In this document: in pieces, positions 4,090-54,621 of the stretch
Numbering within the stretch: position 1 is the stretch's first letter
Layout of the letters: each line of letters starts with the position of its first letter
Source: Kosakonia oryzae
GTDB lineage: Bacteria; Pseudomonadota; Gammaproteobacteria; Enterobacterales; Enterobacteriaceae
Direction of reading: 5' to 3'
DNA: 64,000 bases
NCBI RefSeq assembly: GCF_001658025.2
Contig: NZ_CP014007.2
Span: 3,596,001 to 3,660,000, forward strand
Position numbers and translations under genes: made by a program
Notes under the pieces: model-generated
What the model was told of the DNA's origin: nothing
What the model saw: only the letters and a program-made list of their open reading frames with translations
Databases searched by the model: none

Positions 4090-4098
4090 GACATATCC

Positions 4099-6510: not shown

Positions 6511-6765
6511 ATTGGCTCTTTCACTCTCTGCTACGGGTATCGTTCTATGCGAAATAGAACCTGGACTCAGGTTCAGCAATAGAAATACACGCAATATAAT
6601 CAATGAGTTATTTCGTTATCGTCATGGCAGTAAACCTGCCGCAGCCAGTTAAGGTAAACAAGGTCAAAAAGGGAGGCGCGTCACGAGCACCGCAACGACG
6701 AGTACCGTCAGGCGAAGCTCGGTGAACGTAAAGTTATCGGCCAGGTCACACCCGGTCGATCGCCA
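6511..6765. other. Gap between the ligase/CapA gene and pgaA
   Basis: These 255 bp separate two leftward genes. I see no clear terminator. In frame with the ligase/CapA stop, the minus strand stays open for a further 31 codons after the TGA and would encode a hydrophobic stretch (ELRLTVLVVAVLVTRLPF). Without a start codon or Shine-Dalgarno I do not call this a gene. The pgaA promoter should lie here or pga is read through from upstream. Confidence 0.3.
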
Positions 6766-11055: not shown

Positions 11056-12735
11056 ATGTCGCTTCATCAATTACTTACACATATACAGCCCGCCGCAGAA
11101 CAACTGGATATTAGCACGCTTTCCTCCCCCTCACCTGGCTGGGTTATTTTTTTCAGCGCCAGCGATGGTAAAAGCCGTGCACAAGTTGCGTGCGGGCGCG
11201 GCCAGCGTTTCGATGAAGCATGGCAGAACGGAGCCGCTGCATTGCAACAGTTATGTGGTCTCCGGGAGGCAGAGATAATCTGGCTGCGCGTTGATATCGT
11301 TGAACAGGTTGAAAAGCTGCGTTGGGAGAAATTGCAGCAGAAGCTGGCGGCGACCAAACGTAACTATTTTCGTTGGGGATTAAGTTTCGATCCTGCGTTT
11401 AACTATGCCTTTCTGGAACAGGAAATTGCTGCCAATGCGCTGCTGTATGACGGAAAACAGGGCGTCGCGACGCCCAATAGTGCAAATCTGGCGCACTTTA
11501 CCCGGCGGCGTTTTGGCGCGCGATTCGACTGGCCGCAGGAGGCGGATCGGCCGATCTGGCGCTTCAAGACCAGAGCGCTTTTTTCCGACGGTAAAACGCT
11601 ACTGCCCATTGAATCTCAGGGACGAAACTCAGGGTATCGTCAGCTAACACAGTGGCAGGATGAGCTGGAGATGATGATCCTGTCGGCCACCGATTATCTG
11701 GCGCACCAGATAAAACCTGACGGCCAGTATGAATATGGCTGGTTTCCCTGTTTTGACCGCCGGATCCCCACCTACAACACATTACGCCACGCCAGTTCGA
11801 CCTATGCCTTGCTTGAAGGCTGGGAAGTCAGTCGCAACGATGATCAGCGAAGGGCTATCGAACGCGCCCTGAAATACCTGAGCGATGAACTGATTCAAAA
11901 TTATCAACTGCCCGATGGCAGCAGCGCGGATTTTCTTATCGATAGCGGTAATGAAATCAAGCTGGGCGGTAACGCGGTCTGTATCCTGGCGATGGCAAAA
12001 TATACTGAACTTACCGCCGATGATCGTTATCTTGCGCAGATGAACCGGCTGGCGAATGGCATTTGTTATATGCAGGATTCGCACACCGGCGCTTTTGTGC
12101 ATGTCTTGCATGCGTCTGATTTATCACTAAAAGCTGAGCACCGTATTATCTATTACGATGGCGAAGCCGCTTTTGCGCTGATGCGCCTGTACGGAATTAC
12201 CCGCGAGCCGCGCTGGCTGTCCTGCGTTGAACGGGCGATGGACTATTTTATCGCTCAGCGGCACTGGCAGGCGCACGATCACTGGTTAAGCTACTGTGTG
12301 AATGAGTTGACGCTCTATCGTCCGCTTGAACGTTATTACCAGTTTGGCCTTGACAACGTCCATGGCCATCTTGATTTTGTACTGAACCGGATCACAACCT
12401 ATCCAACACTGCTGGAACTGATGATGGCGGCGGCAAAAATGATTGCCCGCCTGGCGGAATCTGAGCACCGGCATTTGTTAAAAGAACACGATCCTGAAAA
12501 ATTTTCTCTGGCGCTGGAAACTCGCGCCCGTTATCTGGCTAATGGTTTTTTTTGGCCGGAACTGGCGATGTTTTTTAAAAATCCATCGCGTATCGTTGGC
12601 AGTTTTTTTATTCGCCACCACAGCTATCGGGTCAGGATTGATGATGTCGAACACTATCTTTCAGGTTACATCGCCTATCGAAAATACTGGCAGCAACAAG
12701 CCGCTCATCATACTGAACAAAATTCTGCCCCTTAG
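11056..12735 (+). CDS. Alpha/alpha-toroid-like protein of unknown function
   Basis: This is a 559-residue soluble protein with no signal peptide. From about residue 200 on it shows repeated helix pairs with Trp, Tyr and His in the turns ([62 protein letters not shown]), typical of alpha/alpha-barrel glycosidases, epimerases and lyases. The N-terminal 130 residues are a separate region I do not recognise. I cannot assign a reaction. It is divergent from the hydrolase and ligase/CapA genes and lies 9 bp before lapG, so it bridges the two modules. Confidence 0.7.
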
Positions 12736-12744
12736 TAGTGGCTT

Positions 12745-13449
12745 ATGAACGAGCGCTCCTACTCAACCAGAGCAGGCCACGGCAGGCAGCGATATGTGTG
12801 CTTCTGGTTGTTGCTTGTGTTTCTGTTTTCTCCAGGTGGATTGGCCGCCGGATGGGATTTCAATGCGATTAATTCCCGCACGCGCCAGTTATATGGCGCA
12901 GCGACGCCCGCAGCTCAGCAACGAATTGATCAATGGGCAATATTGGTGAATAACCCGCCGCAGGAATCGATTAAAGGAAAGTTAAATCGTGTGAACCAGT
13001 TTTTTAATCAACGCATGCTTTTTCGCGATGACAAACTGGTCTGGGGAAAGGAAGACTACTGGGCAACACCGATTGAATTTTTACGTAAAGGTGAAGGCGA
13101 CTGCGAGGATTATGCGTTAGCCAAATATTTCACATTGCGGGAAATTGGCGTACCCGCCAGTCAGTTACGCATCACCTATGTCAAAGCAATAAAACTGAAC
13201 CAGGCGCATATGGTGGTGACGTGGTATGCCACGCCGGACGCCATACCACTGGTGCTGGATAATTTGAATACCGCGATTTTACCGGCCACACAGCGTCCGG
13301 ATCTTCTGCCGGTTTATGCATTTAACGGCGAGGGGTTATGGCTGCCAGGAGCCGGGGGAAATAAACGTGTCGGCGACAGTAAGCGGTTATCCCGCTGGCA
13401 GGATCTTCTCACAAGAATGCGTGCGGAAGGATTTGTCATTCAAGAATAG
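12745..13449 (+). CDS. lapG: LapG-type periplasmic cysteine protease
   Basis: This 234-residue protein belongs to the bacterial transglutaminase-like cysteine protease family. A signal peptide (CFWLLLVFLFSPGGLAAG) precedes the catalytic triad Cys120 (GEGDCEDYA), His155 (NQAHMVV) and Asp172 (LVLDNLN). The acidic residues flanking the Cys (Asp119, Glu121) correspond to the calcium site known in LapG. In Pseudomonas, LapG cuts the N-terminal part of the adhesin LapA and releases it from the cell surface. The gene sits between the toroid gene and lapD; the lapD Shine-Dalgarno overlaps its stop. Confidence 0.92.
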   Translation: MNERSYSTRAGHGRQRYVCFWLLLVFLFSPGGLAAGWDFNAINSRTRQLYGAATPAAQQRIDQWAILVNNPPQESIKGKLNRVNQFFNQRMLFRDDKLVWGKEDYWATPIEFLRKGEGDCEDYALAKYFTLREIGVPASQLRITYVKAIKLNQAHMVVTWYATPDAIPLVLDNLNTAILPATQRPDLLPVYAFNGEGLWLPGAGGNKRVGDSKRLSRWQDLLTRMRAEGFVIQE

Positions 13450-13458
13450 GAGATTGCC

Positions 13459-15375
13459 ATGTCATTGTATAAGCAGCTGCTGATCGGCATCTGTCTGTTT
13501 ACATTGGTTCTTTTATGCGGAAATTACGTTATCACGCTTGAAAGCTCACGTGAGCAGTACAGCAATCAGTTGAATTCGCACGCCCAGGATGCCGCGACCG
13601 CGCTGGGCGTTGCGCTGACCGGCCATATTGACGACCCGGCAGTGATTGAGCTGATGGTCGATTCCATTTTTGACAGCGGTTATTTCTACAGTATTCGCCT
13701 GGTTGATGTGAAGAGTGGGAAGACGTTAATTGAGCGAAAAGGCACGCCGCAAAGCGCCAATGTTCCACGCTGGTTCGCCCATCTGGTAAGACTGCGGCCA
13801 GGCGTGGGCGATGCCATCGTGATGGATGGCTGGATTCAGGCAGCACGTGTTGAAGTGGTCAGCCATCAGATGTTTTCGGTGGCCCGATTATGGAACAACA
13901 TGGTTGCCAGTTTCCTGTGGTTAAGCCTGTGCAGTTTGCTGTGCATTTTGTGTGCGATGTTCATGTTGCGCCGCAGCCTGCGTCCTTTGAATAACGTTGT
14001 TGAGCAGGCTCGCTCCATCTGCCACCGTGAGTTTCGTAAAGTCACCGATGTGCCTAAAACACCGGAGCTAATGCGCGTTGTCGAAGCCAGCAACATGATG
14101 GTTTCGCAACTGAAAGCCCTGTTTCATGAACAAGCAGAACGCACCGAATCCCTGCGCGCAGCCGCCTATCACGATAGCCTGACGGAACTCAATAACCGGC
14201 GCGCATTTGATATCAAACTGCAATCACTGCTGAGCGATGAAGAGAGCAAAGAGGGAAACCTTATTTTGCTGCGGGTGCAGGATCTTACCGGGTTAAATCA
14301 GCGCGTCGGCGCAGAAAAAGCCGATGAGCTACTGAAATCCATTGCCACGATTTTGCGCGAACTGCTGAAACGCTTTCTGCACAACGAGGGGTTTCTCGCC
14401 CGCATCCGCGGCAGTGAATTTGCGCTCCTGACCGGCGAGTTTCTACCGGCAGAACTGGAAAACTTGTTGTCCCAGCGGCTGAAAGCGCTTAACGATACGG
14501 GAATGAGCGATATCTCGCCCGTGGCCTATTTCACGCATGTCACCTTTCGGGCAGGTGACACGCCACAGGCGGTGCTGGCGCAGGCCGAAACGGAGAAACA
14601 TTTCGCAGCAGATCCGTGGATAACCACAACGGGTTACGGTGAGGAAAACCATCATCAGTGGCTTAGCAAACTCGAAAAAGTATTGAATGCAGAAAAGTTT
14701 ATCCTTTTCGCGCAGCCGGTATTTTCCTGTCACGATCAACAGCGCATTTTGCACTATAAAGTGCTGGCGCGAATAAAAGAGGATAATGGCGAATTAACGC
14801 CTGCCGGACATTTCATGCCCTGGATTCATCGATTTTCGCTTAGCTTTCGCATGGATTTAGTCATGCTTAAACAAGTACTGCGTGAAATGACAAATATCCC
14901 CTACCCTTTAGCGCTGAGCATTAGTGGTGAAAGCGTAGCGAATGACGAAAAACTGGATGCGATATTACAGCTGTTAAAAAATGCGCCGAATCAGGCCAGT
15001 CACTTAACTCTCGAACTGGATGAAAATGAATTGCCCCATGCCGAACGCGTCAATGAAGTGGTTAATAAACTTAAAGCCGTGGGTTGCCATCTGGGTATTC
15101 AGCATTTTGGCGGTAGATTCAATTTGATAGGTAATTTACCGCAATGGGGGCTGGCCTGGATAAAAGTGGACGGTGCCTATATTCATCTTATTGATAAAGA
15201 AGAAGACAAAAGAATTTTTATTGAAGCGATGTACTGGGCGACCCGGCAAATCGATCTTCCGCTTATTGCTGAGCGAGTGGAAACATCCGGAGAATTGGCG
15301 ATACTCAATAAAATAGGTCTCTATGGAGCAATGGGCCGTTACTTCGGCGAGCCCGGTTTATTGTCGAAACAATAA
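13459..15375 (+). CDS. lapD: LapD-type c-di-GMP receptor (degenerate GGDEF-EAL)
   Basis: This 638-residue inner-membrane protein has a first membrane segment (residues about 7-25), a periplasmic output domain, a second membrane segment (about 148-170), a HAMP linker, then GGDEF and EAL domains. Both enzymatic signatures are lost: RGSEF replaces GGDEF and KVLAR replaces the EAL motif, as in Pseudomonas LapD, which binds c-di-GMP without making or cutting it. The output domain has Trp125 in DGWIQA, at the position of the Trp that contacts LapG in Pseudomonas. When loaded with c-di-GMP such receptors hold LapG and keep the adhesin on the surface. Shine-Dalgarno AGGAG overlaps the lapG stop. Confidence 0.92.
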   Translation: MSLYKQLLIGICLFTLVLLCGNYVITLESSREQYSNQLNSHAQDAATALGVALTGHIDDPAVIELMVDSIFDSGYFYSIRLVDVKSGKTLIERKGTPQSANVPRWFAHLVRLRPGVGDAIVMDGWIQAARVEVVSHQMFSVARLWNNMVASFLWLSLCSLLCILCAMFMLRRSLRPLNNVVEQARSICHREFRKVTDVPKTPELMRVVEASNMMVSQLKALFHEQAERTESLRAAAYHDSLTELNNRRAFDIKLQSLLSDEESKEGNLILLRVQDLTGLNQRVGAEKADELLKSIATILRELLKRFLHNEGFLARIRGSEFALLTGEFLPAELENLLSQRLKALNDTGMSDISPVAYFTHVTFRAGDTPQAVLAQAETEKHFAADPWITTTGYGEENHHQWLSKLEKVLNAEKFILFAQPVFSCHDQQRILHYKVLARIKEDNGELTPAGHFMPWIHRFSLSFRMDLVMLKQVLREMTNIPYPLALSISGESVANDEKLDAILQLLKNAPNQASHLTLELDENELPHAERVNEVVNKLKAVGCHLGIQHFGGRFNLIGNLPQWGLAWIKVDGAYIHLIDKEEDKRIFIEAMYWATRQIDLPLIAERVETSGELAILNKIGLYGAMGRYFGEPGLLSKQ

Positions 15376-16077: not shown

Positions 16078-19000
16078 ATGAGTGTCGGGGTCGTAAAAAC
16101 AGTTATAGGACAAGTCTTTGCGACCTCCCCTGACGGTAGCAGACATCTACTGGTTGAAGGCGACACGATCCTGGAAGGAGAGCAAATTGATACGGGTGCC
16201 GAAGGTGCCATTTCGATTACCTTATCCGATGGAAAAACCCTCGATTTGGGCCGTGATACCCATTGGGATAGCAACGACGCGACTTTAAGCACGGGATCCG
16301 ACAGCCCATCCACGGACGTTGAAGCCATCCAGCAGGCGATTGCCGCCGGGCAGGACCCGACACAAACCCTTGAAGCACCTGCCGCAGGCCCGAATGCCAA
16401 CGCCACACCCGCCACGCCGGGTGGTGTCGAGGAAGGCGGTAGCCACACTCACGTCATCCTCGATCTTACCGGTGAGATCCTCGATCCCACCGCCGGATAC
16501 CCCACAGCCGGAATTGATAATCCCGATGGCGACCTGCGTGAAGAATTAGGCCTTCCTGCATCCGAACAAGGCTCCGAAATCGCTGCCGCGAATGCGGATG
16601 CTGATTCTGACGCTGATGCGGATGCGGATGCCGATGCGGATGCAGATGCCGATGCGGATGCCGATGCAGACGCGGATGCCGATGCGGACGCGGATTCCGA
16701 TGCGGATGCAGACGCCGATGCAGATTCTGATGCCGACTCTGACGCCGATTCCGACGCTGATTCAGACGCCGACTCCGATGCTGATTCAGACGCCGACTCC
16801 GATGCGGATTCCGATGCTGACTCGGACGCTGACTCCGACGCTGATGCGGACGCAGATTCTGATGCAGACGCCGATGCGGATGCTGATTCTGACGCGGATG
16901 CAGATGCCGATGCGGACGCGGATGCAGATGCGGATTCCGACGCAGACGCGGATGCAGATTCTGATGCCGATGCTGACGCCGATGCCGACGCGGATGCGGA
17001 TGCGGATGCCGACTCCGACGCAGATTCTGATGCAGACGCAGATTCGGACGCTGACTCCGATGCAGACGCGGACGCGGATGCCGACTCTGACGCAGATTCT
17101 GACGCCGATTCCGATGCGGACGCCGATTCTGATGCCGATGCAGATGCTGACGCCGATGCCGATGCCGACGCGGATGCTGATGCGGATGCGGATGCGGATT
17201 CCGACGCAGATGCCGATGCGGATTCTGACGCTGATTCCGATGCTGACTCGGACGCGGATGCTGATGCGGACTCCGATGCCGACGCAGACTCCGATGCCGA
17301 CTCCGATGCGGATGCGGATTCTGATGCCGATTCCGACGCGGATGCCGATGCCGATGCCGATGCCGATGCCGACGCGGATGCCGATGCCGACTCTGACGCC
17401 GATGCCGATGCCGATTCTGACGCAGATGCCGATGCAGACACGGACGCAGATTCCGACGCGGATGCAGATTCTGATGCGGATGCAGACGCCGACTCGGATA
17501 CTGACGCGGATGCAGATTCTGATGCAGATGCTGATTCTGACGCTGATTCCGATGCGGACTCGGACGCCGATGCAGATTCGGACGCTGACTCCGACGCTGA
17601 TGCCGATGCTGACTCCGACGCGGATGCCGATGCGGATTCTGACGCCGATGCAGATGCCGACTCTGATGCGGATGCAGATGCCGATGCGGATGCGGATGCG
17701 GATGCGGATGCGGATGCGGATGCGGATGCGGATGCGGATGCGGATGCGGATGCGGATGCGGATGCTGACTCCGACGCAGACGCGGATTCTGACGCAGATG
17801 CCGATGCTGACTCCGATGCAGACGCGGATTCTGACGCAGATGCCGATGCTGACTCCGATGCCGATTCTGATGCTGATGCAGACGCAGATGCGGACACCGA
17901 CTCGGATGCCGACGCAGACGCAGATGCGGATTCTGACGCAGATGCAGACGCCGATGCGGACGCTGATGCCGATGCGGATGCTGATGCAGATTCCGATGCG
18001 GACGCAGACGCTGATGCAGATGCAGATGCAGAGGCTGACTCGGACGCTGATTCCGACGCAGATGCCGATTCTGACGCGGACGCCGATGCAGATGCCGACG
18101 CGGACGCTGATGCGGATGCGGATGCGGATGCGGATGCGGATTCCGACGCAGATGCCGATGCGGATTCCGATGCTGATGCCGATTCTGATGCAGACTCCGA
18201 TGCCGATTCTGACGCGGACGCCGATGCCGATGCAGATTCCGACGCAGACGCAGATTCGGACGCTGACGCGGATTCCGATTCCGATTCCGACGCCGATGCC
18301 GATGCGGATGCCGACGCGGACGCTGATGCGGATTCTGATGCTGATTCGGATGCAGACGCAGATTCGGACGCTGACTCCGATGCAGATGCGGATGCCGATG
18401 CCGACGCCGATTCCGACGCTGATGCAGACTCCGATGCCGACGCGGATGCCGATTCTGATGCCGATTCTGATGCGGATGCAGATGCAGATTCTGACGCTGA
18501 TGCGGATGCAGATGCAGATTCTGACGCTGATGCGGATGCAGATGCCGATGCCGATGCTGACTCTGACGCGGATGCGGATGCCGACGCGGATTCCGACGCA
18601 GACGCAGATTCGGACGCTGACGCGGATTCCGATTCCGATTCCGACGCCGATGCCGATGCGGATGCCGACGCGGACGCTGATGCGGATTCTGATGCTGATT
18701 CGGATGCAGACGCAGATTCGGACGCTGACTCCGATGCAGATGCGGATGCCGATGCCGACGCCGATTCCGACGCTGATGCAGACTCCGATGCCGACGCGGA
18801 TGCCGATTCTGATGCCGATTCTGATGCGGATGCAGATGCAGATTCTGACGCTGATGCGGATGCAGATGCAGATTCTGACGCTGACGCGGATGCGGATGCC
18901 GACGCGGATTCCGACGCAGATGCCGATTCTGACGCGGACTCTGACGCAGATTCCGACGCTGATGCAGATGCAGACGCCGATTCCGACGCGGATGCCGATG

Positions 19001-22000
19001 CAGACGCGGATGCCGATTCTGATGCCGATTCCGATGCAGATGCTGACTCGGACGCGGATGCTGATGCGGACGCAGATTCCGATGCAGACGCAGATTCCGA
19101 CGCGGATGCAGATGCCGATTCTGACTCCGATGCTGATGCTGATGCCGATTCTGATGCGGATGCGGACGCTGATTCCGACGCGGACGCTGACTCCGACGCA
19201 GACGCAGATGCGGATGCTGATGCTGATGCCGACGCAGATTCCGACGCGGATGCAGATGCCGATGCCGATGCGGATTCTGATGCCGATTCCGACGCCGATG
19301 CAGATGCAGATGCAGATGCAGATGCAGATGCAGATGCCGACGCAGATTCGGACGCTGATGCTGACGCAGATGCGGATGCGGATGCAGATTCCGATGCAGA
19401 TGCGGACGCCGATGCCGATTCTGACGCTGATGCGGATTCCGATGCTGACTCGGACGCTGACTCCGACTCGGATGCCGATGCGGATGCCGATGCGGACGCT
19501 GACGCCGACGCCGATGCTGATTCCGACGCGGATGCAGATGCAGATACGGATGCCGACGCTGATTCTGACGCCGATGCTGATGCAGATTCCGATGCCGACT
19601 CTGACGCTGATTCCGACGCCGACTCCGATGCCGATGCGGATGCCGATGCGGACGCCGATGCAGACGCTGATTCGGATGCGGATTCTGACGCTGACTCCGA
19701 TGCAGACGCTGATTCGGATGCGGATGCCGACGCCGACGCGGACACCGACGCCGATGCGGATGCTGATGCGGACGCGGATGCAGATGCGGACTCTGATGCT
19801 GATACGGACGCCGACGCGGATGCTGACGCCGATCCCGATTCCGACGCTGATGCCGATGCAGACGCTGATTCGGATGCGGATTCTGACGCTGACTCCGATG
19901 CAGACGCTGATTCGGATGCGGATGCCGACGCCGACGCGGACACCGACGCCGATGCGGATGCTGATGCGGACGCGGATGCAGATGCGGACTCTGATGCAGA
20001 CTCTGATGCTGATACGGACGCCGACGCGGATGCTGACGCCGATTCCGATTCCGACGCTGATGCCGACGCGGATGCCGACGCGGATGCCGATTCTGATGCA
20101 GATGCTGATTCTGACGCGGATGCCGACGCAGACGCAGATGCCGATGCAGACTCCGACGCGGATGCGGATGCGGACTCGGACGCAGATGCGGATGCCGATT
20201 CTGACGCCGATGCGGATGCCGATGCCGACGCTGACTCCGATGCTGATGCCGATTCTGACTCCGATGCCGATGCCGATGCTGATGCGGATGCCGATTCTGA
20301 TGCGGACTCTGACGCCGATGCTGATGCCGATGCAGACTCTGACGCTGACGCTGACGCTGACGCTGACGCCGATGCAGATTCTGATGCGGATGCAGACGCT
20401 GATGCTGATGCTGACTCTGATGCAGATGCCGATGCGGACGCTGACTCCGATGTAGACGCCGATGCCGATTCCGATGCAGACGCTGACGCTGATGCGGATG
20501 CGGATGCGGACGCTGATGCGGATGCTGATGCGGATGCTGACGCTGATGCTGACTCTGATGCAGATACCGATTCTGACGCTGATGCAGATGCAGACGCCGA
20601 TTCCGACGCGGATGCCGATGCAGACGCGGATGCCGATTCCGATGCAGATGCTGACTCGGACGCGGATGCTGATGCGGACGCAGATTCCGATGCAGACGCT
20701 GACTCGGATGCAGATGCAGACTCTGATGCGGATTCTGACGCAGATTCGGACGCTGACTCCGACGCCGATGCGGATGCTGATTCCGACTCCGACGCAGACG
20801 CGGACGCCGATGCCGACTCTGATGCAGATGCGGACGCCGATGCGGACTCCGACGCAGATTCGGACGCAGACTCCGATGCCGACTCTGACGCAGATGCGGA
20901 TGCGGATGCGGATGCAGATTCTGACGCAGACTCGGATGCAGATTCCGACTCCGACTCCGACTCCGACGCAGATGCGGATGCGGATGCCGATGCTGATGCT
21001 GATGCCGATGCAGATTCCGATGCTGATGCCGATGCAGATGCGGACGCCGATGCAGACTCCGACGCGGACGCTGATGCGGACGCCGATGCCGACTCTGACG
21101 CCGATGCCGATTCTGACGCGGACGCCGATGCAGATGCCGACGCGGACGCGGATGCGGATGCGGATGCGGATGCGGATTCCGACACGGATGCCGATTCTGA
21201 TGCAGACGCTGATGCCGATTCGGATGCAGATGCAGATGCGGACGCCGATTCTGACGCCGATGCGGATGCAGACGCTGATGCAGACTCCGATGCCGATTCT
21301 GATGCCGACTCGGACGCAGATGCAGATTCTGATGCGGATGCAGACGCCGATGCCGATGCCGATTCTGACGCGGACGCTGATGCAGATGCAGATGCGGACT
21401 CGGACGCTGATTCTGATTCTGATGCAGACGCGGATGCAGATGCAGACTCTGATGCGGACGCCGATTCTGATGCGGATGCTGACGCTGACGCTGATTCTGA
21501 TGCAGACGCGGATGCAGATTCTGATGCCGACGCCGATGCTGACTCGGACGCAGACGCGGATTCTGATGCGGATGCAGACGCCGATGCGGATGCCGATGCC
21601 GACGCTGATGCCGACTCGGATGCAGACTCCGATGCCGATTCTGATGCTGATGCTGATGCTGATGCTGATGCTGATGCTGATGCGGATGCCGATGCAGATG
21701 CCGATGCCGATGCGGATGCCGATGCAGATGCCGATGCGGATGCCGACGCAGACGCTGATTCGGATGCGGACTCTGATGCAGATGCGGACTCTGACGCCGA
21801 TGCAGATGCGGACGCCGATTCCGATGCGGACGCCGATTCTGATGCCGATGCGGACGCCGATGCCGATGCGGACTCTGACGCAGATTCCGATGCCGACGCC
21901 GATGCCGATTCCGATGCGGATGCTGATTCTGATGCAGACTCTGATGCTGATGCGGACGCCGATGCAGATGCAGATGCAGACGCCGATTCCGACGCGGATG

Positions 22001-25000
22001 CCGATTCTGATGCCGATTCCGATGCAGATGCTGACTCGGACGCGGATGCTGATGCGGACGCAGATTCCGATGCAGACGCAGATTCCGACGCGGATACAGA
22101 TGCCGATTCTGACTCCGATGCTGACGCCGATTCCGATGCGGACGCCGATTCTGATGCCGATGCGGACGCCGATGCCGATACGGACTCTGACGCAGATTCC
22201 GATGCCGACGCCGATGCCGATTCCGATGCGGATGCTGATTCTGATGCAGACTCTGATGCTGATGCGGACGCCGATGCAGATGCAGATGCAGACGCCGATT
22301 CCGACGCGGATGCCGATTCTGATGCCGATTCCGATGCAGATGCTGACTCGGACGCGGATGCTGATGCGGACGCAGATTCCGATGCAGACGCAGATTCCGA
22401 CGCGGATACAGATGCCGATTCTGACTCCGATGCTGACGCCGACGCCGATGCTGATGCTGACTCGGACGCAGACGCGGATTCTGATGCGGATGCAGACGCC
22501 GATGCGGATGCCGATGCCGACTCGGATGCAGACTCCGATGCCGATTCTGATGCTGATGCGGATGCCGATGCAGATGCTGATGCCGATGCGGATGCCGACG
22601 CAGACGCTGATTCGGATGCGGACTCTGATGCAGATGCGGACTCTGACGCCGATGCAGATGCGGACGCAGATTCTGATGCGGACGCCGATTCCGATGCGGA
22701 CGCCGATGCCGATGCGGACTCTGACGCAGATTCCGATGCCGACGCCGATGCCGATTCCGATGCGGATGCTGATTCTGATGCAGACTCTGATGCTGATGCG
22801 GACGCCGATGCAGATTCGGATGCAGATTCCGATGCTGATGCCGACTCCGATGCCGATTCTGACGCGGACGCCGATGCCGATGCAGATTCCGACGCAGACG
22901 CAGATTCGGACGCTGACGCGGATGCTGATTCGGATGCAGACTCCGACGCAGATGCTGATGCCGACTCTGACGCAGATGCGGATGCGGACTCGGATGCTGA
23001 CGCAGACGCCGATGCAGATGCCGACGCCGACGCCGACGCCGACTCCGACTCCGATGCAGATTCTGACGCCGATGCCGATGCCGATGCCGATGCCGACGCC
23101 GACGCCGACTCCGACTCCGATGCAGATTCTGACGCGGATGCTGATGCGGATGCCGATGCGGATGCTGATGCCGACTCCGATGCCGATTCTGATGCTGATG
23201 CTGATGCAGATGCAGATGCGGACACCGACGCCGATTCTGACGCGGATGCAGATGCCGACGCCGATGCGGACACCGACTCGGATGCCGACGCAGACGCAGA
23301 TTCTGACGCAGATGCCGATGCTGACTCCGACGCCGATTCTGACGCTGATGCAGACGCGGATGCCGACTCTGACGCCGACGCTGATGCAGACTCCGATGCT
23401 GATGCCGACGCGGATTCCGATGCCGATGCGGACGCCGATTCCGATGCGGATGCGGATGCCGATTCCGATGCGGATGCGGATGCCGATGCGGATGCGGATG
23501 CCGATGCTGATGCGGATTCCGACGCTGATGCAGATGCTGATTCGGATGCAGATTCTGACGCTGATGCAGATTCCGACGCCGATGCAGATTCTGATGCAGA
23601 TTCCGATGCGGACGCAGATGCGGATGCAGATGCGGACTCGGACGCAGATGCGGATTCCGACGCAGACTCTGATGCAGATGCAGACGCTGACTCGGATGCA
23701 GACTCTGACGCTGATGCGGACGCGGACTCAGATTCAGATCAACATTCCGATTCTGATGCGGATGCGGACTCTGACGCAGATTCTGACGCCGACTCAGATG
23801 CGGATTCTGACGCCGATGCTGATGCAGATTCCGATGCCGACTCTGACGCTGATTCCGACGCCGACTCCGATGCAGATTCTGACGCTGATGCGGATGCAGA
23901 CGCTGATGCCGATGCTGACTCCGACGCCGATTCCGACGCAGACGCTGATTCCGATGCTGACTCGGACGCGGATGCCGATTCTGACGCTGACGCGGATGCT
24001 GATGCGGATTCCGACGCCGATGCCGACGCCGATGCCGATGCCGATGCCGATGCCGACTCGGATGCCGATGCGGATGCAGATGCAGATGCAGATGCCGATG
24101 CGGACGCTGATGCTGACGCAGATGCCGATGCAGATTCCGATGCCGATGCCGATGCTGACTCGGATGCCGATGCGGATGCAGATGCAGATGCGGATTCTGA
24201 TGCCGACGCCGATGCCGATGCCGATGCCGATGCCGACGCCGATGCCGATGCCGACGCCGATGCCGATGCCGATGCCGACTCGGATGCCGATGCGGACGCC
24301 GATTCCGATGCGGATTCCGACGCCGATGCTGACTCGGACGCTGACTCCGATGCAGACGCTGATTCGGATGCGGATTCCGACGCCGACGCGGACGCCGATG
24401 CAGATTCTGATGCAGATTCCGATGCGGACTCGGATGCCGATTCTGACGCCGATTCTGACGCCGACGCTGATGCTGATGCAGATGCGGATGCCGACGCGGA
24501 TGCCGACGCCGATGCCGACGCCGATGCGGATGCAGATTCCGATGCGGATGCCGACGCGGATGCCGACGCCGATGCCGACGCGGATGCGGATGCAGATTCC
24601 GATGCGGACGCCGATGCGGATGCCGATGCCGACGCGGATGCGGATGCGGACTCCGACGCTGACGCGGATGCCGACGCGGATTCCGATGCGGACGCGGACG
24701 CCGATGCGGATGCAGATTCCGATGCGGATGCCGACGCGGATGCCGACGCCGATGCCGACGCGGATGCGGATGCAGATTCCGATGCGGACGCCGATGCGGA
24801 TGCCGATGCCGACGCGGATGCGGATGCGGATTCCGACGCCGACGCGGACGCCGATGCAGATTCTGATGCAGATTCCGATGCGGACGCAGATGCGGATGCC
24901 GATTCTGACGCCGACGCGGATGCAGATTCTGACGCCGATTCCGATGCGGATGCCGATGCGGATGCGGATGCCGATGCGGACTCCGACGCCGATCGCCCTT

Positions 25001-26799
25001 CTGATTCAGGCAGCGATTCGGATGTGCATCTGACTGTAACGGTGACACCGGGCGACAGTACGGATAATTCGTCTGACAATGGCGTCATTCATATCAATGG
25101 CGGCAGCGGTAATCCAAATGGTTATGACATACAGAATGGCGTGATTGTTGCTATTGGCGACAACGTGCAGATCTGGCTGACGCCGGACAGCCCGGACGGC
25201 GCGATTAAAGGCGATCACGTGCCTGAATGCAGCGATCCGAGTCAGATTCACTATTACGACAGCAACGGTAACGTGAACGGCAGCTCAGGCGATCACACCG
25301 ATATCTTTGTGGTGGGCGATCACACTGGCGGCTACTACCAGCAGGGTGACTGGTCGAACGATCACTATGATTTCCGTCCAGTCAATAATATTACCGGCAA
25401 CCAGGGTGTACCTGAGGGCGAAGCGGGCAAAGACTATATCTTTGTTAACGGTGACAGTTCCAATTACAACGTAACTGGCGTCGATCACCCGGATAACCAT
25501 CAGAACAACTCCGTTGATAACGTACAGATCACCAATACGGAAAATGGCTCGCACCCGATCGGTAATGCGAACGGTGTCGAAGGCATTATCTTTGGCGATG
25601 GTCCCTCTTCCAGTCTGGGCGGCTCTACGGATGTGACGCACTCCGTAACGCTGAACGTCGATGTGGATCTGCAAAGTTCCGACAGCGGCGATCATCTGAA
25701 CTCGATCACGATCAATGGCCTTCCGGAAGGGGCGCAATTTGGCGGCGAATATACCAGCGTCACCTACGACCCTGAGCATGGCAGCTACACGCTGACGTTT
25801 GATGACAGCACTACCCATTACGACGGGCAGGTGACGGTTACCCTGCCGGAAGGTGAAAGCAATCTCGGCGAGATCACCATAGATGTCGACTCAACGGCGT
25901 CCGATCAGATCGAACACGACTTCACCTTCGATGGCGAAGAAGGCGGGCAATTGACCAGCGGCACGGAGAGCGCGTCGGCTGATACCCTGCATCCAGTCTC
26001 AGAAAGCGTGGCCACAGATGATGTCACGCATGATGAAGCACACGCTGTCACAACGGATGATTCCGGCACGACAGCGACGGATGACGCCGCGGATAGCGCG
26101 CACGCTCAAGCCACCAGCGCCGCAGTGGATGACCTCTCGCATGCCGATGCCGGAGATACCCACGCAGATACCGATGATACCCACACCGACGCCGGAGATA
26201 CCCATGCCGACGCCGGAGATACGCATGCCGATGCGGGTGATACGCATGCCGACGCCGAGGCTACCGCTGATACCGACACAACGGCTGCTGACGATAACGC
26301 CAGTGCGCCATTACTGATCGATAGCAGTGAGATCAGCCTGGACTTTGGCAGTAGCGAAGAGGCCGAAACGCACGACGCGCAGAGTGTATCGACGACGGAT
26401 GCAGGATCGCTGAATAACCTGCTGGGCGACGATGGTGAGCAGGCTGAGAACGACACGGACGGGACAGCGGCTCACGCAACGCAGCCTGACAACAGCAGTG
26501 CTTCGGGTGATGGCAGCGATAGCGACTCACATGATAGCAGCGCCTCGCCAGGCCTTGACCAGGATCAGCCGCTCAATTTCAGCGACATCATCCTTGATGG
26601 TGACGAACACCAGGATCTGGCAAGCCTTATCCAGGGTGACAGCGCGCCAGCCACGCCAGTGGATCCCACGGAGGATACCGATCATCCCGCGCCTGTCGCA
26701 CCTCCCGGTGAAGGCGGCGATGACGCAGGCAGTGGTGATGGAGGCAGTCACGATGACATGGATAACTTGATCGCTAAACCCGACAGCGATGGAGGCTGA
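16078..26799 (+). CDS. Giant LapA-type surface adhesin with a 2,800-residue Asp-X repeat
   Basis: The product has 3,573 residues. Residues 1-130 match the LapA-family retention module: an [14 protein letters not shown] start, an acidic segment, then [12 protein letters not shown], where the Ala pair (102-103) is the expected LapG cut site, and a [20 protein letters not shown] closing strand. Residues 172-2971 are Asp at every second position alternating with Ala, Ser or rarely Thr. Residues 2972-3573 are acidic and Gly/Asn/His-rich, with six GDTHADA-like heptads and a [16 protein letters not shown] segment typical of type I secretion C termini. I see no Ig-like, VWA or RTX nonapeptide repeats. 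Only one Cys is evident (VPECSD). It should be exported by the TolC/ABC/HlyD genes that follow, held in the outer membrane, and released by LapG. Repeat polymorphism is likely. Confidence 0.88.
16591..24990 (+). repeat. 8.4-kb hexanucleotide-period repeat (GAY XCN)n
   Basis: The DNA is about 1,400 hexamers of the form GAY-GCN or GAY-TCN. Larger blocks are duplicated inside it: 18235-18530 recurs at 18589-18884 (offset 354 bp), 21828-22135 at 22140-22447 (312 bp), 24541-24648 at 24721-24828 (180 bp), and about 19654-19850 at 19852-20060 (198 bp, with a 12-bp insertion in the second copy). All offsets are multiples of six. This shows growth by unequal exchange or slippage. The composition leaves long open frames on both strands, which are not genes. 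Confidence 0.95.
26146..26265 (+). repeat. 21-bp repeats encoding GDTHADA heptads
   Basis: Near the adhesin C terminus, six heptads of the type GDTHADA (variants DDTHTDA and DDTHADT) occur in tandem. The His-Asp-rich composition could bind metal ions, but that is only an inference. They lie between a beta-rich domain and the terminal secretion region. Confidence 0.8.
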
Positions 26800-26852: not shown

Positions 26853-28205
26853 ATGTTATATCGCAATACGCTGTTATTCGGAGTTGGGCTTTCGCTGCTT
26901 TTACTGAAAAGCGCGAACGCCACGACGATTGAACAAGCAGTGAAAGATGCCATCCTCTGGCATCCGGATGTGAGCGCGTCCAGTAATCGTCGCTATTCGG
27001 CGGAACAGGATCTGCGCGCAGCACGCGGGGGATATTATCCCAGCGTGGAACTCTCTGCGGGAACAGGCTGGGAGCGTTCGGATAACTCAACCACGCGCGC
27101 AGAGGGATACCATCAGCTCGATCTGCAACGTAACGAATCCAGCATTTCGGTGACGCAGAACCTGTTTAGTGGTTTTGCCACCCGTAGCGAAGTGGCCAGA
27201 CAGACCGCCACGGTCAACTCCCGCGCCTGGACGGTGCTGGACACCAGCGAAACAACGGCGCTGACAGCGATTCAGGCTTATCTGGATGTGCTGAGAGGTC
27301 GTCAGATGGTGCTGCTGGCAGAAGATAACCTGAAAAACCACGAGCGTATTTTCGATCAGATTACTTTACGTACCGAGCAGGGCGTTGGCCGTCAGGCCGA
27401 TTACGAACAAGCCGAAGCCCGACTGGCGCAGGCTCGTAATAACCTGCTGACGGAACAGACCAACCTGGATGATTCGCTGGCGAATTATCAAAGCGTGGTC
27501 GGTAAAGAAGCCGATGATCTCGTCCTTCCCGCCAAGGTTGCGATCCCTGATTCGCTGGAAGCGGCGCGGAAAGTGATGTTGCAAAACAGCCCATTACTGA
27601 AACAAGCCGATGCAGATGTGGAAGCCACGCGGCAGCAATATGAAGCGGCGAAGTCACGTTTTTACCCCAGCGTAAATCTGGAAGTGGCGCGCACAATGAA
27701 TGACAACATTGACGGCACCCGCGGCCATAACCAGGAATGGCAGGCGATGGTGCGCATGAGCTACAACCTCTACAACGGCGGCAGTGATAAAGCGGCCTTA
27801 ACGTCCGACGCTTACAAAATGAAGGAAGCGCAGGATGTCAAAAACAACGCCCTGCGCCAGCTTAACGAAGAGTTACGCCTCTCCTGGAACGCGTTACAAA
27901 ACGCCGAGAAACAGGTTCCTATCGCCAAAGATTACGCAGATCGAAGCAAGACGGTTCGCATCGCTTATCAGGAGCAGTTCAGCTTAGGCGATCGGTCACT
28001 GCTGGATATGCTCGACAGTGAAAACGAAGTCTTCACCGCCCAAAGCCGTTACATCGAGCTGCAATTTATCGAGATGTTTACCACGTACCGTATCAACGCA
28101 CGTACCGGAACATTACTCAAGGCAATGAATATCCAGCCGCCCTCTTCGGCTCAGCCCGTTGACGAGTTGCAAACTTCAAAAGTCGAATTGCCGGAACTGA
28201 AATAA
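26853..28205 (+). CDS. lapE: TolC-family outer-membrane channel of the Lap type I secretion system (LapE-type)
   Basis: This 450-residue protein has a signal peptide (LFGVGLSLLLLKSANA) and the duplicated TolC fold: repeated long helices with FYPSVNLE- and YYPSVELS-type strand starts. It has the TolC-family ending rich in Gln and Ser. It would form the outer-membrane duct of the secretion system and, by analogy with Pseudomonas LapE, also anchor the adhesin through its retention module. It starts 53 bp after the adhesin stop behind an AAGGTG ribosome site. Confidence 0.9.
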   Translation: MLYRNTLLFGVGLSLLLLKSANATTIEQAVKDAILWHPDVSASSNRRYSAEQDLRAARGGYYPSVELSAGTGWERSDNSTTRAEGYHQLDLQRNESSISVTQNLFSGFATRSEVARQTATVNSRAWTVLDTSETTALTAIQAYLDVLRGRQMVLLAEDNLKNHERIFDQITLRTEQGVGRQADYEQAEARLAQARNNLLTEQTNLDDSLANYQSVVGKEADDLVLPAKVAIPDSLEAARKVMLQNSPLLKQADADVEATRQQYEAAKSRFYPSVNLEVARTMNDNIDGTRGHNQEWQAMVRMSYNLYNGGSDKAALTSDAYKMKEAQDVKNNALRQLNEELRLSWNALQNAEKQVPIAKDYADRSKTVRIAYQEQFSLGDRSLLDMLDSENEVFTAQSRYIELQFIEMFTTYRINARTGTLLKAMNIQPPSSAQPVDELQTSKVELPELK

Positions 28206-28306
28206 CAGTTCGGCTTCAGGTTGGGGTATGTCAGGTGTTCCTGATGGGATATTCCCTTATTGGTTCTTTGCATAGCGGATTTCCCGCTGGTTTGAGAGGT
28301 CAGAAT

Positions 28307-30487
28307 ATGACGCAACATGATGATTCTCAAGATAACACTGATTCATCTAATGAGGTTCTCAGGAGCGATCCACGACAGACTCATGACGATCCTTTACTGG
28401 ATTGTCTGATGATTGTCTGCACGCTGCACAACATTACTACGTCGCGTCACGCCTTAACGTCCGGGCTGCCGCTAAAAAACAACACCCTGATCCTCAGCGT
28501 TTTTCCGCGTGCGGCGGCGCGGGCCGATTTGAAAGCGAGAACGCTTCAGCGCCCGCTCCAGACTATCTCTTCCCACTCATTACCGGCGATCCTGCTACTG
28601 AAAAACAACCAGGCCGCCGTGCTGGTTGCCTGGGACGGAGAAAAGGCGCGGCTGCTACCGAGTGAAACGGAAGGTGGAGAAATTACCCTGACGCGGGAAG
28701 AACTGGAAGAGACTTACAGCGGTGTCGCGATCTTTCTCCAGCCGCAGCATGAATACGATACGCAAGCGACGGCGAAGATTCCGCGTACCAAAAACTGGTT
28801 CCAGGATACGCTGAAGCTCTCGAAGTTCCTCTATATCGATGCGGTTGTTGCCAGTCTGCTGGTGAATATCATCGCGCTGGCCGCGCCCCTGTTCGTTATG
28901 AACGTCTATGATCGCGTCGTACCCAATCAGGCGACAGTGACGTTATGGGTGCTGGCCATTGGCATTACCATTGCCTACTTTTTTGATTTCATTCTGAAAA
29001 TATTGCGCGGAATGTGTCTGGATTTGGCGGGTAAAAAAACGGATCTGATCGTTTCTGCGGCGCTATTTGAGCGCATGTTGGGTATGAAGATGAAGCTTCG
29101 CCCGCCGCGCGTCGGCAGCTTCGCGCAAAACTTCCAGGAGTATCAGTCCGTACGCGATTTTCTCTCCTCGCTGACGCTGACCGGGATGATCGACTTCCCT
29201 TTCACCCTGCTAATTGTACTGGTCATCGGCATCATCGGCGGCCCGCTGGTTTTTATTCCGCTGGTCGCCTACCCGGTTGCGTTGGTGGGTAACTGGTTGC
29301 TCCAGCGCCCGTTGATGTCCAGAGTGCAAAAAACGTTCCGCTTGTCCAGCGAGCGTCAGGCCATGCTGGTCGAAACCCTGACCGGGCTTGATGCCATCAA
29401 AGTGAATAACGCGCAAAGCGAACGCCAGTATCAGTGGGAACAGATTATTGGTCAGCTCAGTAAAATGGAATTAAAGGTGAAATCGCTCTCGTTCGTCGCG
29501 GTTAACTTTACCTCCTGGATACAGCAGGCCAGCGGAGTGGCGATTATCGTCGCCGGGGTTTATGTCATTATCAGCGGCAATCTCACCCAGGGCGGTCTGG
29601 TTGCCTGCTACTTATTGCATCGCCGCGCCATGATGCCTGTCGGGCAGCTTTGCGGGCTGATTACCCGCTATCAACGGGCAAAAACCACCAAAGAAACGGT
29701 GGATCGCATGATGGATCTGGAGCAGGAAGTCCACGACGATGAGGTTCCGTTAAAACGCGAGAAAATCTCTGGTGCGATTGAGTTCCGCGATGTCACGTTT
29801 CACTATCCATCCAATCAATACACATCGCTGAATAATATCTCCCTGACCATCAAGCCGGGCGAAAAAATCGGCATTATCGGCCGCAGCGGTTCCGGCAAAA
29901 GCTCTCTGGCAAAATTGCTGGTCGGCTTCTACCAGCCGGATGCAGGCAGCATATTGATTGATGATATCGACGCCCGGCAGTTGGATGTGCATGAAGTGCG
30001 CCACAACATTGGCTATGCGCCGCAGGATATTCATTTGTTCAGCGGTACGCTGCGCGACAACTTGCTGTATGGCGCCAGCTATATGGATGAAGAAGCGATG
30101 CTGCGGGTGGCCACGATCACGGGCGTGCATGAGTTCGCGCGTCGCCATCCCTCCGGCTATAACATGCGCGTGGGCGAGCGTGGAATGAACCTTTCCGGCG
30201 GTCAGCGCCAGGCGGTAGCGCTGGCCCGTGCGCTGTTGCTTAATCCACCTATTTTATTGATGGATGAACCGACCAGCTCAATGGATAACACGAGCGAAGA
30301 ACAGATCAAAAAAGCCTTGATCCCGGTGGTAGCCGATAAGACGTTGTTATTGGTGACGCACCGCGCTTCATTACTGTCACTGGTTGAACGACTCATCATT
30401 CTCGATAACGGCAAAATCATTGCCGATGGTCCGAAAGAGAGTGTGATGAGTGCTCTGAAAAAGGGGCAAATCCATGCGAATCGTTGA
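28307..30487 (+). CDS. lapB: Type I secretion ABC transporter (LapB-type)
   Basis: The product is 726 residues from the ATG at 28307, chosen because a GAGAGG ribosome site precedes it; the frame is open upstream to 28235. An N-terminal C39-like domain seems to lack the peptidase Cys and His pattern, as in transporters that do not cleave their cargo. Then come a membrane domain with several hydrophobic helices and an ATPase domain with Walker A GRSGSGKSS, signature LSGGQRQ and Walker B ILLMDEPT. It would power export of the giant adhesin. Its end overlaps lapC by 14 bp. Confidence 0.92.
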   Translation: MTQHDDSQDNTDSSNEVLRSDPRQTHDDPLLDCLMIVCTLHNITTSRHALTSGLPLKNNTLILSVFPRAAARADLKARTLQRPLQTISSHSLPAILLLKNNQAAVLVAWDGEKARLLPSETEGGEITLTREELEETYSGVAIFLQPQHEYDTQATAKIPRTKNWFQDTLKLSKFLYIDAVVASLLVNIIALAAPLFVMNVYDRVVPNQATVTLWVLAIGITIAYFFDFILKILRGMCLDLAGKKTDLIVSAALFERMLGMKMKLRPPRVGSFAQNFQEYQSVRDFLSSLTLTGMIDFPFTLLIVLVIGIIGGPLVFIPLVAYPVALVGNWLLQRPLMSRVQKTFRLSSERQAMLVETLTGLDAIKVNNAQSERQYQWEQIIGQLSKMELKVKSLSFVAVNFTSWIQQASGVAIIVAGVYVIISGNLTQGGLVACYLLHRRAMMPVGQLCGLITRYQRAKTTKETVDRMMDLEQEVHDDEVPLKREKISGAIEFRDVTFHYPSNQYTSLNNISLTIKPGEKIGIIGRSGSGKSSLAKLLVGFYQPDAGSILIDDIDARQLDVHEVRHNIGYAPQDIHLFSGTLRDNLLYGASYMDEEAMLRVATITGVHEFARRHPSGYNMRVGERGMNLSGGQRQAVALARALLLNPPILLMDEPTSSMDNTSEEQIKKALIPVVADKTLLLVTHRASLLSLVERLIILDNGKIIADGPKESVMSALKKGQIHANR

Positions 30488-31838
30488 CATGCTTAGCCGC
30501 CTGATGGGCTGGATTTTCGGCGACAGAAAATCCACGCCAATCGCCATTAATGAAGTCAATCAGGCGGTAATCGATGACTCACCGCGCGTTATGCGTATTA
30601 CGCTGTGGGCAATATTTGCCTTTTTTATCTGCATGTTTTTCTGGTCGGCACTCGCTGATATTGATGAAGTGACGCGCGGAGAAGGCCGGGCTATTCCCTC
30701 TGCTCGTCTGCAAAAAATTCAAAACCTCGAGGGCGGGATTGTCGCGCAAGTCTACGTGCGCGATGGCGATATTGTGAATGCCGGCGCGCCGCTTATTCGG
30801 CTTGATGACACCCGTTTTCGCTCGAATGCTGAGGAAACAGGAGCCGATCGTCTGGCATTACAGGCACGCGTAGAGCGCCTGACAGCCCAGACGAATGGCG
30901 AGACAACGCTGACACTGTCACCCGATATTGTTAAAGGCGCACCGGATATCGCCAAAGGCGAAATGGAACTGTTCACCACCATTAACAACCGCGTCAACAG
31001 CACTATCGCGGGGCTGAATGAACAACTGGTGCAAAAAAAGCAGGAACTGCTCGATATGCAGACCAAAGCCGCTCAGTACCGGAAAAGCCTGCAATTGTTG
31101 CAACAGGAGATCAGCCTTTCTGTCCCGTTAATCAGCAAAGGCGCCATCTCCCGCGTGGAAGTGTTGCGACTCCAGCGAACAGAAGTGGACACGCGTGGGC
31201 AGTTGGACACCACGACAGTGGCGATACCGGGTGCGGCCGCCGCGGTAAAAGAGATAGAGAGTAAAATCAAAGAGACGCTGGACAATACGCGCAGCGACGC
31301 GCTCACCCAACTGAATCAGGCCCGCACCGATCTCAGTAAAGCCGAAGCAACCAGCAAAGCGATTGAAGACCGGGTTAATCGCACCATGGTGGTCTCACCG
31401 GTGCGGGGGATTGTGCAGCAGGTCATGGTCAACACCATTGGCGGTGTCATTCAGCCAGGGAATGATATGGTTGAAATTGTACCGCTGGATGACACGTTAC
31501 TGATTGAGGCCAAAATTCGCCCACAGGATATTGCCTTTATTCATCCGGGCCAGGAAGCGATGGTGAAATTCTCCGCTTACGATTACACCATTTACGGTGG
31601 TCTGGCTGCCAAACTGGTGCAGATAAGCCCGGATACGGTGACAGATAAGGACGGGAATAGTTTCTATGTTATTCGTCTGCGCACCGATAAAAACCATCTT
31701 GGCACTGACGATAAACCGTTATTAATCATTCCGGGCATGGTGGCTTCAGTCGATATTATTACGGGTAAGCGCACCATTCTTCAGTACCTGTTAAAACCTA
31801 TTCTGCGCGCCAGAGCAGATGCGTTACATGAAAGGTAA
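30474..31838 (+). CDS. lapC: HlyD-family periplasmic adaptor (LapC-type)
   Basis: This 454-residue membrane-fusion protein has one N-terminal membrane helix (ITLWAIFAFFICMFFWSALA) followed by DEVTRGEGRAIPSARLQKIQNLEGGIV, characteristic of HlyD adaptors. A long coiled-coil hairpin (residues about 100-280) and a C-terminal beta domain follow. It joins the ABC transporter to the outer-membrane channel. It overlaps the 3' end of lapB, so translation is coupled. It is the last gene of the secretion operon. Confidence 0.93.
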   Translation: MRIVDMLSRLMGWIFGDRKSTPIAINEVNQAVIDDSPRVMRITLWAIFAFFICMFFWSALADIDEVTRGEGRAIPSARLQKIQNLEGGIVAQVYVRDGDIVNAGAPLIRLDDTRFRSNAEETGADRLALQARVERLTAQTNGETTLTLSPDIVKGAPDIAKGEMELFTTINNRVNSTIAGLNEQLVQKKQELLDMQTKAAQYRKSLQLLQQEISLSVPLISKGAISRVEVLRLQRTEVDTRGQLDTTTVAIPGAAAAVKEIESKIKETLDNTRSDALTQLNQARTDLSKAEATSKAIEDRVNRTMVVSPVRGIVQQVMVNTIGGVIQPGNDMVEIVPLDDTLLIEAKIRPQDIAFIHPGQEAMVKFSAYDYTIYGGLAAKLVQISPDTVTDKDGNSFYVIRLRTDKNHLGTDDKPLLIIPGMVASVDIITGKRTILQYLLKPILRARADALHER

Positions 31839-54615: not shown

Positions 54616-54621
54616 GTAAAT

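Follow-up and report, generated by a model that had tools for sequence, protein, structure and literature searches.

The locus considered here raises the question of what a protein made almost wholly of one alternating dipeptide does for a bacterium, and how it is made. In our study, a window of 64,000 nucleotides of the plant-associated bacterium Kosakonia oryzae (contig NZ_CP014007.2, positions 3,596,001 to 3,660,000 of the forward strand) was analysed, in which one open reading frame (ORF) encodes a giant protein with aspartate at every second position over most of its length. Judged from the sequence, this ORF is an intact LapA-type adhesin. The reading that we moderately favour is that of an adhesin controlled by cyclic di-GMP (c-di-GMP), in which a stalk of Asp-X dipeptides (X being the residue between the aspartates) replaces Ig-like repeats and would be processed in the cytoplasm by dedicated enzymes before export. 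The stalk would be polyanionic and probably enzymatically decorated. An earlier note on this DNA had described a normal retention module and secretion and release genes around the adhesin, and both are borne out: the module scores above its family cut-off, and a LapG equivalog, a LapD-like receptor and an LssB-type exporter adjoin the gene (Table 1). Moreover, a predicted cut at the putative dialanine site PAAG would give AGPNANA... as the new start of the window adhesin; LapG of Pseudomonas fluorescens cleaves LapA between Ala108 and Ala109, leaving AGPSAAG... (PMC3032545).

The Asp-X tract lies between an N-terminal part of 173 amino acids (aa) and a C-terminal part of 600 aa, the latter as the earlier note had it. 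Exact counting gave Asp in 1398 of the 1400 alternate positions from aa 174 to aa 2972, in agreement with the earlier estimate of about 1,398, and the two other residues are Glu652 and His2556. X is Ala in 1042 units, Ser in 339 and Thr in 15, with one each of Pro, Val, Gln and Arg (74% Ala, 24% Ser). The adhesin has a mass of 345.5 kDa and a formal net charge of -1542 for the whole protein; a strongly negative charge had been foreseen correctly, whereas the figure then given, near -1,400, was off. Similarly, the stretched length of about 1 micrometre matches a tract contour of 980 nm (0.35 nm per residue), which is a calculated maximum and no measurement of reach. The view that the protein is no chain of folded domains is also supported, as no Pfam or NCBIfam domain was found in the 600-aa C-terminal part and neither a HemolysinCabind match nor a GGxGxD motif of the RTX type in the window adhesin.

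Exact DNA duplications of 49 and 43 units are present within the tract, compared with 5-7 units in 20 hexamer-order shuffles, and some tract segments are thus recent. These duplications, and a 2.8-fold difference in tract length between close species (1400 versus 503 units), would suit a low-complexity region that grew by repeat slippage and has little function in itself. This explanation is highly improbable, being contradicted by the codon pattern. The Asp codons of the tract are mixed (GAT 907, GAC 491) and all four bases are used at the third position of X (A/C/G/T = 0.18/0.34/0.25/0.22), but at the Asp positions of the window tract only a single Glu codon is found; hence the tract is no trivial fresh expansion. 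Codon usage was used here in place of a synonymous/nonsynonymous count, the near-repeats within the tract holding one change in 346 units compared, too few for such a count. Slippage also fits poorly with a reading frame that is kept, and with an architecture that is equal over many genera. The same codon pattern accounts mechanically for the minus-strand ORFs of 2274 and 2860 aa that overlie the tract. An assembly artefact, which had been named as a possible refutation, is an unlikely source of the tract because the genome is one contig of 5,416,158 bp, in which a single retention module was matched, and because intact Asp-X tracts of their own are present at three other Kosakonia loci. In a fourth further locus, that of K. 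sacchari SP1, the tract has N gaps and a broken frame.

Comparison of sequences places the Asp-X adhesin in a widespread set and it is not a one-off. It was found in 5 of 15 Kosakonia genomes (K. oryzae included), and the same five carry LapG. Tract matches occur in 35 of 295 genomes of the family (E 1e-10), and many other Enterobacterales besides Kosakonia carry such tracts. Among the first 20 loci fetched, 14 (L044-L056 and L060) hold the retention module, tract, C-terminal domain, lapG, lapD and exporter together; in L047, L049 and L054 the adhesin reads as two ORFs, and L060 has two adhesins. A second type I system, which lacks lapG and lapD and has tracts of Ser-Asp or of mixed type, is found in four others (L057-L059, L063). 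In L062 there is an ORF with a Ser tract, the exporter and U559 genes belonging to it (U559 is discussed below) lying in the neighbouring stretch L090, and L061 gave nothing. In all, 16 full-length adhesins of 143-1400 units were compared, the window tract being the longest. These 16 are single ORFs with a retention module; split adhesins, the second type I system, and L086 and L087, which are lap-type adhesins with merely 57 and 34 units, were left out. Of the 16, twelve have an Ala-rich X; L055 and L056 have Ser at this position, and both adhesins of L060 have Thr.

Asp is kept in 6940 of 6943 alternate positions over these 16 adhesins, and the exceptions are one each of Glu, His and Asn. 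Tract ends were set by score (+1 for Asp, -4 for any other residue), which trims at non-Asp residues, so that this figure describes tract interiors; a tract was taken to end at a phase slip of a single residue, as in K. quasisacchari, scored with 345 units of about 480. With the third bases of the codons mixed, a tract that tolerated Glu should contain Glu codons frequently. Charge alone is no explanation of the tract, because Glu, of equal charge, fills 1 of 6943 Asp positions and because partner genes accompany the tract. Asp itself is evidently constrained, beyond charge, and this conservation despite mixed synonymous codons stands against slippage as well. Outside the order, Asp occupies 210 of 210 positions in G670 (X mostly Ala) and 566 of 566 in the longest stretch of G554 (X mostly Thr), where part of the tract reads N. 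The Asp rule is also followed by an Asp-Gly tract of 89 units in an autotransporter of G949 (L176:5784-8954), and a standalone U559 homologue adjoins it. The pair of tract and partner gene thus occurs outside type I secretion too. On reading, the matches of five genomes (G201, G031, G205, G197, G104) were found not to be tracts of Asp with a small residue, G197, for instance, having 65 Asp-Arg units in a frame of 147 aa. Three of the six matches of the class search (G547, G606, G577) and that of G832 in the phylum sample hold no Asp-X run.

U559, a 559-aa protein encoded upstream of lapG, is the common companion of these tracts. It was found in 26 of the 295 family genomes, and 25 of these are among the 35 with an Asp-X match; in the 26th, G122, the contig ends where the adhesin should be. 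Of the 14 full lap loci 13 have U559, L056 being the one without it. Ten of the 35 tract-match genomes have no U559, among them the five just named whose matches proved to be of another kind. Four of the ten (G018, G045, G135, G167; E 1e-11 to 1e-12) were counted as matches from scores alone, and in another genome without U559, G132, which does have a real tract, a giant Ser-Asp protein is split by stops into several ORFs (L058), with an SdgA-like glycosyltransferase (GT) gene nearby. In the class sample (369 genomes searched), both other true tract genomes, G670 and G554, have a U559-like gene within the 20-kb tract locus, that of G554 at 24% identity. No family match was obtained for U559 in Pfam, NCBIfam or PHROGs, and a 20-sequence profile gave no meaningful match in the PDB (best E 0.41).

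The pairing of U559 with tracts bears on the explanation, favoured in the earlier note, that the tract is a plain polyanionic, calcium-responsive brush, which would stay unmodified, soluble and unfolded inside the cell and be neutralised or stiffened by external calcium. Its support comes from the charge of the protein, from the lack of RTX or Ig matches in the window adhesin and from the preference for Asp over Glu, which would suit metal binding. We consider it unlikely, since it leaves unexplained both the pairing in 25 of 26 genomes and the fusions of U559 with glycosyltransferases and with ligases, which sort according to X. Nor does the tract always simply take the place of RTX calcium repeats: in the distant genome G762 (L167) one protein has both, so the two are compatible. 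Calcium binding by the tract is plausible in itself, as a putative property.

In most loci the partner enzymes were found to follow the residue X. U559 is fused to a GT4 glycosyltransferase in ten loci (L055, L063, L084, L087, L088, L090-L094), and for the six scanned (L055, L084, L087, L090, L093, L094) the best NCBIfam model is SdgA or SdgB, as it is for the separate 546-aa glycosyltransferase of G132. Their scores are far under the curated cut-off of 800 bits and above those of the other models listed. Because all 14 control genomes were also positive in this family search, the match alone is weak, and weight is put on the best model together with the position in a tract locus; the other GT4 genes of K. 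oryzae itself reach at most 84 bits to SdgB. Further, U559 is fused to a GT2 domain in both Thr-tract loci of the family. For G554, a genome with a Thr tract, a GT2 domain had likewise been predicted on the U559-like protein and was not found there; a GT41 gene lies near that tract and counts as support only after the fact. Over 30 loci, Ser/Thr tracts are accompanied by a U559-fused glycosyltransferase in 10 cases and by none in 1, whereas Ala tracts have one in 1 case and none in 18. Left out of this table are L056 and L095, which lack U559, L091, which lacks a tract, and the loci added later (L124, L165, L167, L173 and L176).

On the other hand, Ala tracts are usually accompanied by Mur ligases. 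Of 18 Ala-tract genomes, 17 have a Mur ligase in addition to MurF, as against none of the five Ser/Thr-tract genomes searched genome-wide, a count that omits G016 and the phylum genomes and takes a single match of about 30% per genome as MurF from size and identity. Among the 17, MurPGA, a protein combining a Mur ligase with S11-like and PGA_cap parts, lies beside the cassette in 10 and a Mur-only protein in 3; the ligase is encoded elsewhere in 3 (59-60% identity) and is fused in 1. Fusions of U559 with a Mur ligase were found in L120, L164-L167, L169, L173 and L175 (Pfam was run on L120, L164, L169 and L175), and the tracts of G670, G762 and G948 among these genomes are of the Ala type, that of G948 on another contig. 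In G755 and G1016, U559 is followed by PGA_cap and Mur ligase within one protein (L164, L169). An alpha/beta-hydrolase-like protein (ABH) is encoded near such proteins in L164, L166 and L169, and the set of G755 and G1016 corresponds to the three separate window proteins U559, MurPGA and ABH. Both genomes have short Ala-type tracts on other contigs, of 26 and 29 units. U559 was also found fused to an ATP-grasp domain in G699, G832 and G735 (L168, L170, L172). In the window, MurPGA has the P-loop GTVGKSS at aa 135; it is located likewise in nine other cassettes, with ABH accompanying it across cassettes. It is put forward as a candidate amide ligase, acting with U559.

Another possible role for U559 is that of a chaperone in the cytoplasm, or of an adaptor for export, which keeps the polyanionic chain unfolded for the exporter, the fused enzymes acting elsewhere, for example on capsule or wall precursors. 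U559 accompanies tracts in two different type I systems and is unfused in 17 Ala-tract loci, and the synthesis of the wall and of poly-glutamate is known to involve Mur and PGA_cap domains, all of which would agree with such a role. We find it quite unlikely nevertheless. The best structural matches of U559, from a poor model, are mostly sugar-active toroids (candidate families are AGE/cellobiose 2-epimerase or GH88/GH127/GH76, with weak Pfam matches to GH88 and GH127), and the homologue beside the Asp-Gly autotransporter tract accompanies a protein that uses no type I exporter. Moreover, SdgA and SdgB glycosylate the Ser of Ser-Asp repeats in staphylococci (PMC5230774), that is, they act on the repeats themselves.

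For the favoured reading, of an adhesin with an enzymatically processed stalk, the following mechanism may be proposed. By analogy with LapA, the adhesin would be held in the outer-membrane pore by its retention module and released through LapD and LapG as c-di-GMP falls. The tract would form an extended, highly charged chain carrying the 310-aa C-terminal domain at its tip, up to about 1 micrometre from the cell, and its length may differ between species, as is allowed for a stalk. GT4, GT2, GT41, Mur and ATP-grasp proteins are nucleotide-using enzyme classes, presumably cytoplasmic, and since the exporter loads from the cytoplasm, decoration of the chain before export is possible. Co-occurrence and fusions suggest that U559 and a nucleotide-dependent enzyme specific to the lineage jointly act on the Asp-X chain or handle it. 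Where X is Ser or Thr this would be a glycosyltransferase, as for SdgA and SdgB on staphylococcal repeats; where X is Ala, as in the window, it would most likely be the adjoining Mur-ligase/CapA-like protein. Amidation of Asp side chains by this ligase is the most speculative step. Tentatively, the proposal can be widened: Asp-X tracts may be gene-encoded polyaspartate scaffolds with U559 as common reader, fused to its partner or encoded close to it. On these scaffolds Mur or ATP-grasp ligases would join amino acids or a different amine to Asp side chains, mainly where X is Ala or Gly, and GT4, GT2 or GT41 enzymes would decorate Ser or Thr at X. The Kosakonia product would then be a micrometre-long stalk with amidated side chains, a ribosomal counterpart of cyanophycin and of poly-glutamylated tails, presented by an adhesin under c-di-GMP gating.

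A number of points weigh against the favoured reading. The Fisher test of the U559-tract association (p 3.7e-27 by genome, 1e-12 by genus) ignores kinship, as does the p of 3.8e-6 for the 30-locus table, which was entered by hand. The phylum sample gave 11 further U559 genomes, six with Asp-X runs and five without; G791, G807 and G832 of the latter are 76-77% complete, and G735 and G777 are rated 100% complete, in 230-260 contigs. Distant U559-like genes are present in G439 and G428, where no tract was found. The model of U559, which resembles an (alpha/alpha)6 toroid, is of low confidence (pLDDT 49). The sorting with X has exceptions: an Ala-rich tract fragment with U559-GT4 in L084 (G016), a Ser tract with U559 alone in L089 (G207), a Ser tract beside a U559-Mur fusion in L165 (G1016), the Ser-tract lap locus L056 of G041, which lacks U559 while U559-GT4 stands in another tract locus (L094), and the Ala-tract genome G155, which has no extra Mur ligase. 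L165 and L175 gave no match to a simple pattern for the Mur P-loop. The ATP-grasp fusion loci hold no tract, and G699 alone has one, on another contig, with X mostly Ala or Gly. In the window itself MurPGA is divergent from the lap operon and lies outside it, and the LapD-like receptor scores 930.8 bits against the equivalog NF045673, below the cut-off of 1020. The roles of the C-terminal parts are taken from position: the 310-aa domain is likely the tip or ligand-binding part, and the C-terminal signal for type I secretion presumably lies in the Asp/His-rich tail.

Table 1. Features of the adhesin locus, in window coordinates
Feature	Positions	Strand	Basis
MurPGA, 1109 aa: Mur ligase, S11-like, PGA_cap (CapA-like)	6766..10095	-	Pfam
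ABH, 298-aa alpha/beta-hydrolase-like protein	10055..10951	-	Pfam matches slightly below cut-off
U559, 559 aa, upstream of lapG; partner gene of Asp-X tracts	11056..12735	+	Co-occurrence, low-confidence fold model
LapG periplasmic cysteine protease	12745..13449	+	NF045674, 361.8 bits (cut-off 320)
LapD-like c-di-GMP receptor	13459..15375	+	Pfam LapD_MoxY_N, GGDEF, EAL
Adhesin ORF, 3573 aa, uninterrupted	16078..26799	+	ORF reading
Retention module, aa 1-173	16078..16596	+	NF033682, 119.6 bits (cut-off 50)
Putative LapG-type dialanine site PAAG, aa 101-104	16378..16389	+	Compared with PMC3032545
(Asp-X)1400 tract, putative stalk, aa 174-2972	16597..24996	+	Residue count
310-aa C-terminal domain	25018..25947	+	Conserved in three other Kosakonia (75-96%)
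Asp/His-rich tail	25948..26799	+	Position
TolC-like outer-membrane channel	26853..28205	+	TIGR01844, 288.4 bits (cut-off 225.15)
LssB-type exporter ATPase (LapB type)	28235..30487	+	TIGR03375, 948 bits (cut-off 693.1)
HlyD-type adaptor (LapC type)	30474..31838	+	TIGR01843, 425.5 bits (cut-off 208.65)

The 310-aa domain gave a poor AlphaFold model (pLDDT 43.6) with no Foldseek match at E 0.001 or better, and the C-terminal domain of the adhesin has no sequence match in the PDB and none in plasmids. In the close relative G008 (L012), which has the tract of 503 units, the 310-aa domain is present twice. The order of Mur ligase, S11-like and PGA_cap parts within one protein is unusual; by eye, the S11 part of MurPGA looks degenerate, a clear SxxK not being seen, and the N-terminus of ABH is hydrophobic. 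Directly upstream of the Asp-X cassette of G023 lies, with exporter genes, another retention-module adhesin of the classical kind (L112:2577-9443), which has Big_13, VWA and RTX domains but no Asp-X tract. Beside the window cassette, pgaC, pgaB and pgaA (750-6603, minus strand) had suggested poly-N-acetylglucosamine as a polycationic partner of the polyanion. This candidate was set aside and the neighbourhood treated as incidental, because pga genes are absent from all 13 further loci for which an upstream flank was available (8-16 kb, of unequal lengths). Elsewhere in the window, a tandem array at 53983-54616 (133-bp unit, 4.8 copies, 98% matches) lies mostly between ORFs, and no Rfam family reached gathering score anywhere in the 64 kb, this array included.

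If the proposal is true, it would define a large class of Gram-negative surface adhesins whose stalks are made from a template plus an enzyme and not from folded domains, with an exchangeable decorating enzyme that depends on the residue X. A function would be provided for U559, an uncharacterised protein family of several proteobacterial groups, and the glycosylation of Ser-Asp repeats would be extended from staphylococci to type I secreted adhesins. Further, a new protein modification, amidated aspartate side chains, would be predicted.

The tracts themselves have precedents. In the beta-BAPs of Acinetobacter, Ig-like repeats are replaced by 501 or 701 Ser-Asp pairs, one A. haemolyticus strain has 148 Ala-Asp pairs in its BAP, the gene region is flanked by the lapEBC exporter genes, and SD-rich adhesins by lap genes are reported in Klebsiella and Enterobacter (PMC4647330). 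The window shares with them the Asp-dipeptide tract and the lap exporter genes; the available passages on beta-BAPs do not mention LapG/LapD control, a U559-like gene, or a Mur or glycosyltransferase partner (PMC4647330). Repeat adhesins of other type I systems have also been described (PMC7730722). Within the partial literature covered, mostly listings and abstract openings, Ser-Asp and Ala-Asp tracts are already in print and their partner genes were not found there; nothing was recognised on U559, on ligase partners or on Asp-Ala adhesins under LapG/LapD control. The staphylococcal proteins Sdr, Pls and ClfA have a similar Asp-alternating stalk, and SdgA or SdgB is the best model for the U559-fused GT4 of the Ser-tract relatives. 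The staphylococcal Sdr proteins, however, belong to Gram-positive bacteria with another anchoring, whereas the window tract is mostly Ala, its U559 has no glycosyltransferase, and the LPXTG wall anchor is absent from the adhesin C-terminus, a type I exporter being present instead. Cyanophycin synthetase, poly-gamma-glutamate synthase (CapB/CapA) and tubulin polyglutamylases are Mur or ATP-grasp ligases that add amino acids onto carboxylates. MurPGA unites Mur ligase and PGA_cap domains, and with 15.6 bits against a cut-off of 850 it falls far short of cyanophycin synthetase (TIGR02068). Close to the adhesin, too, is LapA of P. fluorescens, with which the window shares the retention module, the dialanine LapG site, LapG, LapD and the LssB-type exporter. 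Ig-like extender repeats and RTX nonapeptide repeats are common in the LapA-type family, outside the NF033682 definition; the window adhesin has no Ig-like repeats or RTX match, and presents instead an Asp-X tract together with U559 and a ligase or glycosyltransferase partner.

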